From Salinarchaeum sp. Harcht-Bsk1 (GTDB taxonomy: Archaea; Halobacteriota; Halobacteria; Halobacteriales; Salinarchaeaceae): DNA of 64,000 nucleotides. The stretch's first letter is position 1. Each line of letters begins with the position of its first letter. Position numbers and translations under genes: made by a program. The stretch is taken from the NCBI RefSeq assembly GCF_000403645.1, contig NC_021313.1, positions 1,631,014-1,695,013 of the forward strand, written 5' to 3'. This document shows, piece by piece, positions 53,305 through 59,313 of the stretch. Below the pieces are notes generated by a model that was not told the origin of the DNA, searched no databases, and saw only the letters and a program-made list of their open reading frames with translations.

Positions 53305-54165
53305 ATGACGCTCCGGAATCGGCCGCTCGACGAACTCGTGATTCCCGACGAGACGACCGTCGAGGAGCACGACCTGGTCACCGAGGGCGACGTGGTCGTC
53401 GGTGGACGGGGCACCGTCGAGTTCGGCGTCCGGGGCAGGAACGTGCTGGCCGGCGAGGGCACCGAGTTCGGCGGCGACATCGAAGCCGAGGCGGACTGCC
53501 GGCTGGACATGTGGTCCGACGTGGCCGGCAACGTCCTCGTCGGTCGCGACGCCTACCTCGGCGAGCGGGTGCACGTTGACGGCGAGTTGAAGGTCGCTGG
53601 CGACCTCGACATCGGCGACGACGTCGAGATCGAGGAGGGATTCGAGGCAAACGGCTGGATCGTCATCCGGAACCCGATGCCGACGATCGTCTTCCTGTTC
53701 GTCTACCTCTCCCAGCTATTGCGGATGGGTGAGGAGGACGCCGCCCAGGAACTCGTCGGCAACCTCACGGAGAGCGACAGCATGGACGCCGAGCCCCTGG
53801 TCATCCCGCGGGGCGCCCGCGTCGGTGACGAGACCTGGCAGACCGACACGCCGGCCCGGATCGGCGACGATTGCCGACTCCACGGCAACGTCCGAGCGAC
53901 GGAGATCACCGTCGGCGAGGATAACGACGTGTTCGGGAGCCTCCGCGCGAAGGGCGACGTCGTCGTCGGCGACGGCACGACGATCCACGGCGACCTCTCG
54001 ACGCGGAACGGCACAGTCTCGCTGGAGGGTGACGCCCGCGTGCTCGGCGACGTCGCCTGCTCGGATCTCGCGGTGAGCCGTGGCGCGGACGTCGACGGCA
54101 CGATGCGCGCCAGCGGCGAGGTCAAGATTCTCGAGGGCGCGGCGATGCCCCACCTCAGCGACTGA
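53305..54165 (+). CDS. bactofilin-like polymer-forming protein
   Basis: 286 residues built from short beta-strand rungs: VVVGGRGTVEFGVRGRNVLAGEG.., GNVLVGRDAYLGERVHVDGELKVAGDLDIGD, GNVRATEITVGEDNDVFGSLRAKGDVVVGD. This is the beta-solenoid pattern of bactofilins (polymer-forming cytoskeletal proteins). In the middle, WIVIRNPMPTIVFLFVYLSQLLRMG forms a strongly hydrophobic helix that could be membrane-inserted and splits the solenoid into two parts (about 1-115 and 165-286). Similar archaeal proteins have been called halofilins; my assignment is by pattern only. Leaderless promoter upstream, preceded by a hairpin at 53227-53245. Confidence 0.72.
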   Translation: MTLRNRPLDELVIPDETTVEEHDLVTEGDVVVGGRGTVEFGVRGRNVLAGEGTEFGGDIEAEADCRLDMWSDVAGNVLVGRDAYLGERVHVDGELKVAGDLDIGDDVEIEEGFEANGWIVIRNPMPTIVFLFVYLSQLLRMGEEDAAQELVGNLTESDSMDAEPLVIPRGARVGDETWQTDTPARIGDDCRLHGNVRATEITVGEDNDVFGSLRAKGDVVVGDGTTIHGDLSTRNGTVSLEGDARVLGDVACSDLAVSRGADVDGTMRASGEVKILEGAAMPHLSD

Positions 54166-54434
54166 GCGGCGTCCGTCGTCGATTCGTCGAGGACTCCACC
54201 GCCCCGAGCGGCGCGACCGTGGTGCCAGCGGGCAGTGCGCTCCGCCGCTGCTGGTAGGATTCACAGGTATCGACAGCCCGACCGGGTGCCGCCGCACCGC
54301 TACCCCGGCGCTGTCTACGAATTTGTAGCTTCACTACCAGAAGTACCAAATATGAATGCTTATTGCGGCTAATGTTATAGTCTCTGAAAGTTTTAGATAA
54401 TAATACTTTTGTGCCCAATCAATAGCCATTCGCC

Positions 54435-54569
54435 ATGTCCGAAACCAATGGCCGAATGGCGGCGTACCTCGCAGAGCACCCCCGAATGGTCGGCGCACTG
54501 TTCACGATCCTCCTGCTCCTCTCCCAGGTCGGCAGCGTCGCTGCCAACCAGAACTCGACGATCGGGTGA
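54435..54569 (+). CDS. 44-residue single-helix membrane peptide (DUF7503-like)
   Basis: Start ATG 54435, reading MSETNGRMAAYLAEHPRMVG then ALFTILLLLSQVGSVAAN and a short polar tail ending STIG. It has one hydrophobic helix preceded by a conserved-looking YLAEHPRM. It resembles the tiny haloarchaeal proteins I know as DUF7503, of unknown function. A strongly AT-rich promoter (TTTTAGATAATAATAC at 54391-54406) precedes it, which is striking in such GC-rich DNA and supports expression. Confidence 0.65.
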   Translation: MSETNGRMAAYLAEHPRMVGALFTILLLLSQVGSVAANQNSTIG

Positions 54570-54829: not shown

Positions 54830-57058
54830 TCAGCCGGCGTCGAGGTCGATCTCGTCGCGCCAGGTGAGCTGCCCGTCGAAGCGAACGGGACCGTCGTCCA
54901 GCGCGAGGAACGCCTTGAGCGACTCCCCGTCGAGGCGGATCTCCTTCGAGCGACCGGAGGCGAGGTAGTACTCGTCGATCCCCTCGACGTGCGGGATGGT
55001 GAGGCCGCCGATCCCGGTCTCGGCACCGTACATGTCGAGCGTGACGGCGTACTCGTCGCCGCGGCGCTCGACGTCGATCAACATCGGCGTCCCGCCGGCG
55101 GTCTGGACGATCGAGAGGCTACCGTCACCGAGCGCGATGTAGAGCGCGCCGACGACGCTCTCCTCGCGTGCGAGCTCCAGCGCCGGGCGCAGCGGGAATC
55201 CGTAGTTGAGCAGTTTGGCGACGGCCCGACCGATGCGGACCGCGCCGTGGTTGACGACGTCGCGAATCGTGACGATGCCGCCGATCGCTCCCTGTTCGAC
55301 CAGCCCCATCCCCTGGTCGTAGGACTGGCAGGCGTTGAGGAAGAACGCGTCCGTGCCGACCGAGTCCAGCGTCGCGACGTCGAGCAGCCCGTCGGCGCAC
55401 TCGAAGCCGTCAGCCCTGATGTGGCCGACGTAGTGGAGGAACTCCCGCTCCTCGGCGAGGACGTCGGCGAGTTCGTCGGTCGTGAGGTCACGGTGGACGG
55501 TGACGTCGAACGGCAGGTTCGCCCGGGAGCCGTAGACCTCGTCGACGAGGTCGCCCTCCGCGGCCATCTCGTCGGCGTTGCAGACGACGGCGATGTCGAC
55601 GTCGCCGGTCGTGGGCGTCCGGCCGATGCGGTTCTCGTAGGCCTCGGGAACGGCCTTCGTCGCACCGATCGGGGTGCCGCCGCCGACCCAGGTCCGCTCG
55701 AGTGCGTCGAGTCCGGTCGGATTCACGAACGTCGTATCGGCGGCCGCGGAGCCACGGACGAACGCGCCCTCGTCGCGTGCCTCCCCGTCGTGTGCTCCCT
55801 CGTCACGTACCCTCTCGTCGTGAGCGACCGCGGCGTCCGCGAGCGCAGCGCCGGCCGTCTCGAGTGCGGGAGCAGTCGGTTCGCCCCCGTCGCCGCCACG
55901 GAGGAGCCCCTGGACGCCACCGGACTCGACGACGGCGGCGGAGACGCGTTCCGGTTCGCCGACGGAGAGCACGGCGAGGTCGTCGACGAGGTACGGGAGC
56001 GTCTCGACGCCGTCGGCGGACGGGGCGAGCTGTGCCGCGTTGCGCCAGTCCGGCAGGAGGTCCGCGATCAGGTCGTGGGGGACGTCGAGGAACGCGGCGA
56101 TCCGCTCGGCCTGGGGCGCGTCGTACAGGTCGGCGAACGGCAGCTCGATCCCGCGGGCATCGAGGCGCTCCTCGAGCAGATCGCGCTCGTGGAGGTCGAC
56201 GCGGTAGAGCCCCTCCGTCCGCGTGACGCACTCGAGGAGGAAGATCCGTTCGAGTGTGCGCTCGACGCCGTCCTCGAAGGAGCCGGCGTGCTCGAGGCGG
56301 TGGTCGAGCCCGTCGCCGAGGAGCCGCGGCTCCGGGCCCGGCTCCACCGGCGCGCCGAGGTAGTACGCAAGCGGCGCGACCGGGAACGCGTAGCGGTACT
56401 CGGGTGGCACTTCGATCCGCAGGTCGTCGGCGGGCGGTTCGAGCCCCTCGGGAATCGAAAGCTCGGACCCGACCTCGACAGCGGGCGGGTGGCCTCGAAA
56501 GCTGCCGAACGCTCGCTCGGGAGAGGTCGTCTTGAGCGCCGACCCGAACGTCGAGATCGCCGCGAGGACGTCTTCGGGATCCGACGTCGTCGTGACCGTC
56601 GCTGCCGGCCGTTCGTGGGCCGATCGACAGCCGATCCCGACGCGGGCCGGCGAGCCGAAGTCGATCGCGGTCCCGTGTCCGTCGGGGGCGATCGAGACCG
56701 GCCCCTCGACGCGGAGGTACGTTCGGAGGATGCCGGTCGGTTCGAGGACGTAGGCGTCGGCCGAAAACGAGGCGGTCTCGCCGTGGTCGACCTCGGCGAG
56801 CATCTGCCCGTCTGCGTCCCGGACGATGACCTGCTCGGCGGTGGGCGTCGTCACGGACGCGGTCTCGACCGCGACCGCGGTCTCGACGGGGATCGGAAAG
56901 GCCCCGGGATCCAGCGGCTCCGGGGAGACCTGCGAGGGCGTGTGGAGCGACCGCCTGCGACGCTCGATCGGGTCGATGATCTCGACGCCGGGCGTCGAAT
57001 CCAGCGACTCGAAGACGGCGGTGAAGCCGGCTTCGTGCTGGTGCTCCGGCAGTGCCAT
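54830..57058 (-). CDS. CHAT/caspase-like cysteine protease domain protein
   Basis: 742 residues from ATG 57058 (MALPEHQHEAGF); an upstream ATG at 57265 would add a Cys/Arg-rich shadow. The N-terminal 230 residues are beta-rich and unrecognised, the middle is helical, and the C-terminal part holds a caspase-fold dyad: the strand FLHYVGHI with His546 and FFLNACQSYDQG with Cys577, followed by GLVEQGAIGGIVTI and VVNHGAVRIGRAVAKLL. This matches the CHAT subfamily (His in a GH or SGH turn, Cys in ACQSG). No signal peptide. An Asp/Ala/Glu low-complexity insert (DEGAHDGEARDEGAF) lies near residue 430. The role is unknown: possibly proteolytic signalling or defence. Confidence 0.72.
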   Translation of the reverse strand: MALPEHQHEAGFTAVFESLDSTPGVEIIDPIERRRRSLHTPSQVSPEPLDPGAFPIPVETAVAVETASVTTPTAEQVIVRDADGQMLAEVDHGETASFSADAYVLEPTGILRTYLRVEGPVSIAPDGHGTAIDFGSPARVGIGCRSAHERPAATVTTTSDPEDVLAAISTFGSALKTTSPERAFGSFRGHPPAVEVGSELSIPEGLEPPADDLRIEVPPEYRYAFPVAPLAYYLGAPVEPGPEPRLLGDGLDHRLEHAGSFEDGVERTLERIFLLECVTRTEGLYRVDLHERDLLEERLDARGIELPFADLYDAPQAERIAAFLDVPHDLIADLLPDWRNAAQLAPSADGVETLPYLVDDLAVLSVGEPERVSAAVVESGGVQGLLRGGDGGEPTAPALETAGAALADAAVAHDERVRDEGAHDGEARDEGAFVRGSAAADTTFVNPTGLDALERTWVGGGTPIGATKAVPEAYENRIGRTPTTGDVDIAVVCNADEMAAEGDLVDEVYGSRANLPFDVTVHRDLTTDELADVLAEEREFLHYVGHIRADGFECADGLLDVATLDSVGTDAFFLNACQSYDQGMGLVEQGAIGGIVTIRDVVNHGAVRIGRAVAKLLNYGFPLRPALELAREESVVGALYIALGDGSLSIVQTAGGTPMLIDVERRGDEYAVTLDMYGAETGIGGLTIPHVEGIDEYYLASGRSKEIRLDGESLKAFLALDDGPVRFDGQLTWRDEIDLDAG

Positions 57059-57459: not shown

Positions 57460-58683
57460 ATGGACATCGCATCTATCGTTTCCGACGACTTCGTCGAGTT
57501 CACTCCGGATACCACCGTTTCGAAACTCGCTGGCACGTTCGACGATCCCGGCGTCAAGGGCGTCGTCGTGCGGGGCGACCAGTTCGAGGGCGTCGTGACC
57601 CGCCGACAGCTCGCCACCTCGCACCTCCAGCCCAACGAGACCGTCGGCTCGCTAGTGTGGCACGTCCCCAAGCTCGCCCCCAACGAAGACGTCCGAAAGG
57701 TCGCCCAGCTCATGATCGACAGCGACTCTCGCGTCCTCCCCGTGTTCGAGGGCAGAGACCTGATCGGCGTGGTCGACGTCGACGGCATCCTCGAGGCCGT
57801 CCAGGAGTTCCTCGACGCCGCGACCGTTGCCGAGGCCCAGAGTGCCGACCTCGTCTCGCTCGACCCCGACGCCACCGTCGGCGAGGCCATCCACGAGTTC
57901 CGCGACCGCCGGATCACGCACCTGCCGGTCGTCGAGGCCGACGAGGCGATCGGCATCCTGAGTCTCTACGACGTGACCGACGTCACGGTCCGGGCGGTGA
58001 CCCAGAGCCAGGGCGGCGACGCGGGCGGTACCGACGCGTTCGGCGGCGAGATCTCCGCGAGCAGCGGCCGTTCGGGACGCGGCGGTTTCGGGGCCAGAGA
58101 GGGCGAGTCCGCACGGCTGCTCGACCTCCCGGTCCGTGACCTCATGGTCTCGCCCGTCCGGACTATCCACCCCGAGGCGACGCTCGAGGAGGCAGTCGAG
58201 GAGATGTTCGACGTCGGCGGCTCCTCGCTCGTCGTCACCAGGAACGGGAGCCCGCACGGCATCGTCACCAAGACCGACGTCCTCGAATCGCTGACGTGGG
58301 AGGCCGGGGGCAACAGGGGCGTTCAGGTCTACGGCACGGAGCTAATCGACGACGTGAGCTACGACGACGTCGTGGCGATGATCGACACGTTCGACAGCCG
58401 CGACGACGACATGAACGTCCTCGAGGCCAAGGTCCACCTCCACGAACACGACGAGAAACACCGGGGTACGCCGCTCCTGCTCGCCCGCATCCGGCTGCAC
58501 ACCGACCGCGGCCTCTTCGTCGCGTCGGGGGAGGGCTACGGTGCGAGCCAGGCGCTCAACGAGGCGCAGGACGTCGTCGAGCGCCAGATTCGCGACCAGA
58601 AGACCCACGGGAAGAGCAAGAAGCACCGCGACGAGGCGTTCTGGGAGAAGCGCTTCGGCTGGCTGCTCGAGGAAGCGCCCTGA
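57460..58683 (+). CDS. four-CBS protein with C-terminal hibernation-factor-like domain
   Basis: 407 residues from ATG 57460 (an open frame continues further upstream, but not as protein-like sequence). Four CBS motifs fill residues 1-290: MDIASIVSDDFVEFTPDTTV, LVWHVPKLAPNEDVRKVAQL, ADLVSLDPDATVGEAIHEF and VRDLMVSPVRTIHPEATLEEAV, each with an HLPVVE, VLPVFE or SLVVTRNG strand. The last 100 residues (NVLEAKVHLHEHDEKHRGTP.., RIRLHTDRGLFVASGEGYGA.., ALNEAQDVVERQIRDQK) read like an S30AE/HPF ribosome-binding domain. CBS pairs bind adenine nucleotides, so it may sense energy state and control ribosome hibernation. Confidence 0.75.
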   Translation: MDIASIVSDDFVEFTPDTTVSKLAGTFDDPGVKGVVVRGDQFEGVVTRRQLATSHLQPNETVGSLVWHVPKLAPNEDVRKVAQLMIDSDSRVLPVFEGRDLIGVVDVDGILEAVQEFLDAATVAEAQSADLVSLDPDATVGEAIHEFRDRRITHLPVVEADEAIGILSLYDVTDVTVRAVTQSQGGDAGGTDAFGGEISASSGRSGRGGFGAREGESARLLDLPVRDLMVSPVRTIHPEATLEEAVEEMFDVGGSSLVVTRNGSPHGIVTKTDVLESLTWEAGGNRGVQVYGTELIDDVSYDDVVAMIDTFDSRDDDMNVLEAKVHLHEHDEKHRGTPLLLARIRLHTDRGLFVASGEGYGASQALNEAQDVVERQIRDQKTHGKSKKHRDEAFWEKRFGWLLEEAP

Positions 58684-58890
58684 GACGCCCGACGGGCCCA
58701 TCGTTCGTCGAGCGACGCCGGAGGAGACGCCGTCACCCGAATCGACCCCGGCCGTCTCGTTGGAGCCGCTTTTCGCCGACTTCGCAGCACCGAAAAACCC
58801 TGATACCACGGGACACGTTCGGGTTGTCGGTGGACAACGGCTCGCTAACAATAGCGGGGTGTTCCCTATGCCGTGGTGGAGGATCTTCAA

Positions 58891-59313
58891 ATGCCAATTC
58901 AGGACCTCGCTCGCGAGGACGTCGTAACCACAGGACCAGAGACGCCAGTACCGGACGTCGCTCGGATGATGGACGAAGAGACGGTCGGTAGCGTCGTCGT
59001 CACCGAAGGCGACCAGCCGGTCGGCATCATCACCGACCGCGACCTCGCACTTCGCGTCGTCGCGGAGTCGGCCAACCCGGCCGATCACACGGCGGCGGAC
59101 GTCATGTCGACGGATCTCCACACCGCCACGCCCGACACGGGCTTCTACCAGGCTGCCGAGGAGATGCGCGCGAACGGCATCCGACGACTCCCGCTCTGTG
59201 ACGACGACGGTTCGCTCGTGGGGATCATCACGTCCGACGACCTCAACGAACTGCTCGCGGACGAACACCAGGAGCTCTCGACAGTGCTCCAGGCCCAGCG
59301 CCCCTCGTACTGA
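58891..59313 (+). CDS. two-CBS domain protein
   Basis: 140 residues from ATG 58891 (an upstream GTG adds only MVEDLQ). It is a bare CBS pair: MPIQDLAREDVVTTGPETPVPDVARMM..TVGSVVVTEGDQPVGIITDRDLALRVV and ADVMSTDLHTATPDTGFYQAAEEMRANGIRRLPLCDDDGSLVGIITSDDL. No partner domain is present. Such proteins bind adenine nucleotides and can regulate others in trans. It lies 208 bases after the four-CBS gene, same strand, and may act with it. Confidence 0.82.
   Translation: MPIQDLAREDVVTTGPETPVPDVARMMDEETVGSVVVTEGDQPVGIITDRDLALRVVAESANPADHTAADVMSTDLHTATPDTGFYQAAEEMRANGIRRLPLCDDDGSLVGIITSDDLNELLADEHQELSTVLQAQRPSY

Follow-up and report, generated by a model that had tools for sequence, protein, structure and literature searches.

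The CHAT-type peptidase gene of the window and the small convergent gene that faces it form one two-gene module, previously undescribed. The window is the whole analysed stretch of Salinarchaeum sp. Harcht-Bsk1 DNA (64,000 nucleotides). The second gene encodes a putative membrane micropeptide of the family DUF7503 (PF24335). Among haloarchaeal genomes, the two genes are shown to be strictly linked, convergent and co-absent. The reading preferred here, with a rough probability of 0.45, is that the peptidase is a sensor-protease of the cytosol for which the membrane micropeptide serves as dedicated substrate or effector; we infer catalysis, the identity of the substrate, sensing and the membrane effect.

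Features of the module (window coordinates, strand):

54830..57058, minus strand: CHAT-type peptidase gene, 742 aa; ATG at 57058; the stop codon (54830-54832) is included in the coordinates.
54833..55729, minus strand: C-terminal CHAT peptidase domain, residues 444-742.
55901..57028, minus strand: N-terminal domain, residues 11-386; confident model, without known family or solved fold.
55421..55423, minus strand: codon of the putative catalytic His546, kept in 112 of 113 sequences.
55328..55330, minus strand: codon of the putative catalytic Cys577, kept in 112 of 113 sequences.
54435..54569, plus strand: DUF7503 (PF24335) membrane micropeptide gene, 44 aa; convergent with the CHAT gene, 260 bp between the stop codons.
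54379..54408, plus strand: conserved AT-rich promoter-like element, 30 bp, ending 26 bp before the start codon of the micropeptide gene.

Linkage of the two genes

DUF7503 and the CHAT domain were searched separately in 51 genomes (50 genera) and the coordinates were then compared. Gene adjacency was scored in this set; a set of 392 genomes of the class Halobacteria was used for co-occurrence. All 62 DUF7503 matches lie within 9-282 bp of a CHAT-family match (median 27.5 bp), for a chance expectation of about 0.0019 per match, and all 62 genes are convergent with the neighbouring CHAT-family gene. DUF7503 is found in 336 of the 366 CHAT-positive genomes and in none of the 26 CHAT-negative ones; the corresponding Fisher p (2e-25) overstates independence, the genomes being related. 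The sequence-only reading had taken the peptidase for a stand-alone protein with no obvious partner gene next to it, but the tiny membrane peptide that it listed as a neighbour is the conserved partner.

The source genome carries three CHAT copies: the window copy, C1:1961951-1964059 (50-59% identical) and C1:2919741-2921807 (33% identical). It has exactly two DUF7503 genes, one beside each of the two closest CHAT copies; the module has therefore travelled or duplicated as a pair. Around 80 relatives from named genomes, the wider neighbourhoods vary greatly, and the micropeptide gene recurs directly downstream on the opposite strand. The stop codons are adjacent or overlapping in many pairs, with 260 bp between them in the window. 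In a Halomarina plasmid record, a small convergent hypothetical CDS lies about 30 bp downstream of a gene labelled 'caspase family protein'.

About half of the CHAT-family matches of the 51 genomes have no recognisable peptide. They belong mostly to a divergent paralog clade, and the family must therefore serve some further role or act on some further substrate. Next to some members scored as unpaired (loci L130, L113 and L152) there is nonetheless a convergent peptide gene, whose diverged product keeps [HN]P[RK] and a hydrophobic stretch. A further diverged convergent peptide, at L129, is detected by the DUF7503 profile; at L058 about 1.4 kb separates the peptide gene from the CHAT gene.

The CHAT-type peptidase

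Taken alone, the 742-aa protein of the window gave no match at E<=10 to any model of Pfam, NCBIfam or PADLOC. It is conserved over its full length in 25 other aligned sequences; the ORF is therefore not due to chance. The Pfam CHAT profile (PF12770) is matched by 8 of the 26 alignment members (best E 1.1e-5) and is weak on the haloarchaeal family, its curated cut-off being exceeded in one genome out of 51. His546 and Cys577 are invariant in a larger alignment (64/64 sequences). When the set is widened to 113 sequences, among them divergent paralogs and four homologs that lie outside Halobacteria, 112 retain both residues. Other residues invariant in the 113 sequences: Arg188, Asn494, Cys554, Asp556 and Ser579. 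The sole exception for the dyad is a divergent homolog from outside Halobacteria (L149, 4043-6106, minus strand), where Arg and Asp replace the two residues; judging from this replacement, it is probably an inactive pseudo-protease.

The AlphaFold2 model, built from the 64-sequence alignment, has a pLDDT of 85.9 and a pTM of 0.86. It shows two halves separated by a disordered linker (residues 388-439). The best PDB match given by Foldseek is a SAVED-CHAT protein (8tl0, E 7.6e-8), followed by separase (5fby, 1.2e-7), gingipain R (1cvr, 3.4e-6), Csx29 (8eey, 6.4e-5) and caspase-11 (3e-3); a second separase structure, 5fc2, also ranks high for the protease domain. The conserved dyad, the modelled caspase-hemoglobinase fold and the weak but repeated PF12770 matches support the assignment of the window protein, as far as a predicted structure allows, as a CHAT-type caspase-fold cysteine peptidase. 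The assignment made from the sequence alone withstands the check set for it: the two residues named for the dyad are conserved and the caspase core is present in the predicted fold. The haloarchaeal protein is presumed to be catalytically active.

The sequence-only reading had recognised no family in the residues ahead of the dyad, and the searches agree. The N-terminal part (about 380 residues), modelled alone, reaches a pLDDT of 89.1 and has no match at E<=0.001 among PDB and viral structures, which were the structures covered by the fold comparison. It has no Pfam, NCBIfam or PADLOC match either, and a profile search of PDB sequences gave chance matches only. Naming this domain as a member of a known family was dropped, as neither a profile nor a fold matched. 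Since the model is confident and has no counterpart in the PDB or among viral structures, the domain is possibly of a new fold.

Distribution and phylogeny

A CHAT-family gene is present in 366 of the 392 genomes of the class Halobacteria and in 78 of the 86 genera. In the phylum sample outside this class, four genomes, all of the family f19, carry full-length divergent homologs, and one more genome gave a marginal match. Twenty-five haloarchaeal plasmid records, all classed as non-mobilizable, carry a CHAT-family gene; the products are mostly labelled 'hypothetical protein', with one 'caspase family protein' and one 'CHAT domain-containing protein'.

The phylogeny (FastTree, 113 proteins) is a quick one with long branches and is not to be over-read. 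In this tree, the closest named relative of the window protein is that of Salinarchaeum laminariae (56% over 695 columns). The haloarchaeal family splits into a paired clade, with the peptide beside 78 of its 91 members (2 more are not judgeable), and a divergent clade of 18, mostly unpaired. The paired or unpaired state changes 9 times on the tree, against 28 times with shuffled labels. In two genomes, three CHAT-family matches are clustered (G023:C1:418156-423284 and G043:C1:875825-881393), which suggests tandem expansion.

A protease triggered by phages, as proposed from the sequence alone, or acting in abortive infection would be in keeping with the best structural match, a CHAT protease of type III CRISPR systems, which are defence effectors. 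The distribution is neither patchy nor mobile, searches of IMG/VR and INPHARED gave no relative, no PADLOC model matched at E<=10 and the window copy lies amid housekeeping genes. An anti-phage role is thus highly improbable, and a defence island was rejected as the main explanation on the PADLOC result, the frequency of the family and the lack of viral copies in these two collections. Stress, the other trigger proposed from the sequence alone, is a possible one.

The DUF7503 micropeptide

The window micropeptide matches DUF7503 with an E of 2.5e-19 (71 bits; cut-off 27). It has one hydrophobic stretch. The pattern common to 75 copies is M-S-[DE]...[YF]-L-x-x-[NH]-P-[RK]-M-x-G-[VA]-L-F-T-x-L-L-L-L-[ST]-Q-A-G-x-[AV]-A-A...G-P. 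The proline is kept in 75 of 75 copies, Q in 73 and G in 74; most copies end in Gly-Pro. Differences between close pairs number 395, 320 and 1175 at codon positions 1, 2 and 3, respectively: this shows protein-coding selection at the sequence level, and the micropeptide is hence taken to be translated and constrained. The AT-rich element is also found upstream of other DUF7503 genes, where it ends about 26 bp before the ATG. Over 53 non-redundant upstream regions, its score per sequence is 13.8, against 7.5-8.3 for shuffles.

DUF7503 and DUF7504 (PF24336) are both catalogued only as families without assigned function. Among open-licence PMC papers, no literature naming either of them was found, nor any combining 'CHAT domain' and 'haloarchaea'. 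The pairing with a CHAT protease gives DUF7503 a testable function.

The hydrophobic helix could be a single membrane span or a signal peptide. In the latter case, the micropeptide would be the precursor of a secreted peptide: the Gly-Pro-ending tail would be released as a signal and the CHAT protein would act on the remnant or in the response. Nearly all copies have [AV]/[AG] at positions -3/-1 at the end of the helix, residues that signal peptidase I prefers, and the tail is variable, yet ends in Gly-Pro in most copies. However, the conservation of the helix goes far beyond what a generic signal peptide requires, and no conserved receptor or exporter gene lies nearby. A secreted precursor is therefore rated as very unlikely.

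The residues conserved along the whole helix, including the polar Q and the G mentioned above, resemble a binding surface. They would fit a membrane anchor, an adaptor or an inhibitor by which the CHAT protein is positioned or kept under control, the true substrates being elsewhere in the cell. Protease relatives without the peptide also fit such a role. The dependence of the peptide on CHAT, however, fits a substrate equally well, and a role of this kind is considered unlikely.

Proposed mode of action

In the preferred reading, a sensor-protease with a dedicated membrane substrate or effector, the protease would be soluble and cytosolic and its N-terminal domain would receive a signal. This signal would switch on the C-terminal CHAT domain, which would then act on the micropeptide at or near the conserved [NH]P[RK] segment that precedes the hydrophobic stretch. 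The action of the protease would set the level or the activity of the micropeptide in the membrane. The protease-substrate logic would be the one that Csx29/Csx30 and bacterial gasdermin operons follow, reduced to a single-span peptide. There is a precedent: the CHAT peptidase Csx29 cleaves Csx30, the product of a neighbouring gene (PMC10028731). Two features stand against a substrate. The convergent rather than co-directional arrangement is unusual for a protease-substrate pair, and few residues of the micropeptide would be reachable outside the hydrophobic stretch by a cytosolic protease.

The pairing is asymmetric: DUF7503 is never found without the protease, and the protease is sometimes found without the peptide. 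This fits a dependent substrate or effector; it fits a toxin-antitoxin-like pair too, in which the micropeptide would harm the membrane and the CHAT protease would degrade it as a control. Such an asymmetry is expected of a toxin, and small hydrophobic peptides are typical type I toxins. Nevertheless, the near-universal single-copy distribution differs from that of mobile toxin-antitoxin loci, a protease of more than 700 residues is a costly antitoxin and the N-terminal domain is left unexplained; a toxin-antitoxin-like pair is for these reasons considered unlikely. The strict pairing of CHAT and micropeptide genes leads to a specific and cheap hypothesis on what the protease acts on, namely the micropeptide of the preferred reading.

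Caspase-like activity of Haloferax volcanii

Very high caspase-like activity, sensitive to zVAD-FMK, has been reported in extracts of Haloferax volcanii (PMC3615174). The authors of that work pointed out that archaeal genomes have no clear caspase homologues and called for the identification of the protein or proteins responsible. Twelve other Haloferax genomes have a CHAT gene with its peptide, and H. volcanii itself, used as a control line, has DUF7503. On this basis, the haloarchaeal CHAT family, which is near-universal, has the caspase fold and keeps its dyad intact, can be put forward as a concrete and testable candidate for the source of the activity. The proteasome and other proteases are competing sources.

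The most extensive reading combines all these elements. It sees a new kind of membrane module under the control of a protease, belonging to the core of one archaeal class. The protease, of caspase fold, would have a sensor domain without precedent and an obligate tail-to-tail micropeptide, which it would cut or release to alter the membrane; it would in addition be the source of the H. volcanii activity. This reading is judged doubtful as a whole, and decidedly so.

Comparison with known systems

Csx29/TPR-CHAT (Craspase) and SAVED-CHAT of type III CRISPR systems resemble the haloarchaeal protein in their fold, their His/Cys dyad, their large non-catalytic N-terminal part and their dedicated neighbour gene. 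Unlike theirs, the N-terminal part of the haloarchaeal protein matches TPR and SAVED neither by profile nor by fold; the protein is paired with a membrane peptide of 44 aa, encoded convergently, and is near-universal in one archaeal class. Separase and gingipain are alike in the fold of the protease domain (5fby, 5fc2, 1cvr), but identity is about 13-16% and confined to this domain, and the haloarchaeal protein shows no sign of a role in cohesin cleavage. In bacterial gasdermin operons, a protease gene lies beside the gene of a membrane-acting pore former, which recalls the haloarchaeal pair. The haloarchaeal partner, by contrast, is a single-span peptide of 44 aa, far too short for a gasdermin; the genes are convergent and the distribution is near-core. 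HetF, a cyanobacterial CHAT-domain putative protease, has a role in cell division and development, not in defence (PMC8406250). The haloarchaeal protein can be likened to it by its domain type and by its apparent non-defence role. To our knowledge, HetF has no micropeptide partner.

Other genes of the neighbourhood

Near the module, the window contains a bactofilin-family gene (53305-54165, plus strand; PF04519, E 1.3e-12). On the other side, divergent from the CHAT gene, lies a gene (57460-58680, plus strand) for a protein with four CBS domains, whose C-terminus weakly resembles S30AE/HPF (E 0.05); a second CBS protein, with two CBS domains, is encoded at 58873-59310. As partners of the peptidase, the CBS/S30AE-like and bactofilin genes were rejected: they are not conserved neighbours, as their protein clusters are represented in only 2 loci and 1 locus of 81, respectively.

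DUF7504 genes occur in 36 of the 80 loci of relatives, mostly directly upstream of the CHAT gene and co-directional with it (e.g. L034, 7139-7858; L061, 7192-7899). DUF7504 was rejected as an obligate partner, being found in these 36 loci only; the source genome has seven copies, none of them beside a CHAT gene. In Haloferax and its relatives, the micropeptide gene is followed by a gene for a HalX response regulator.
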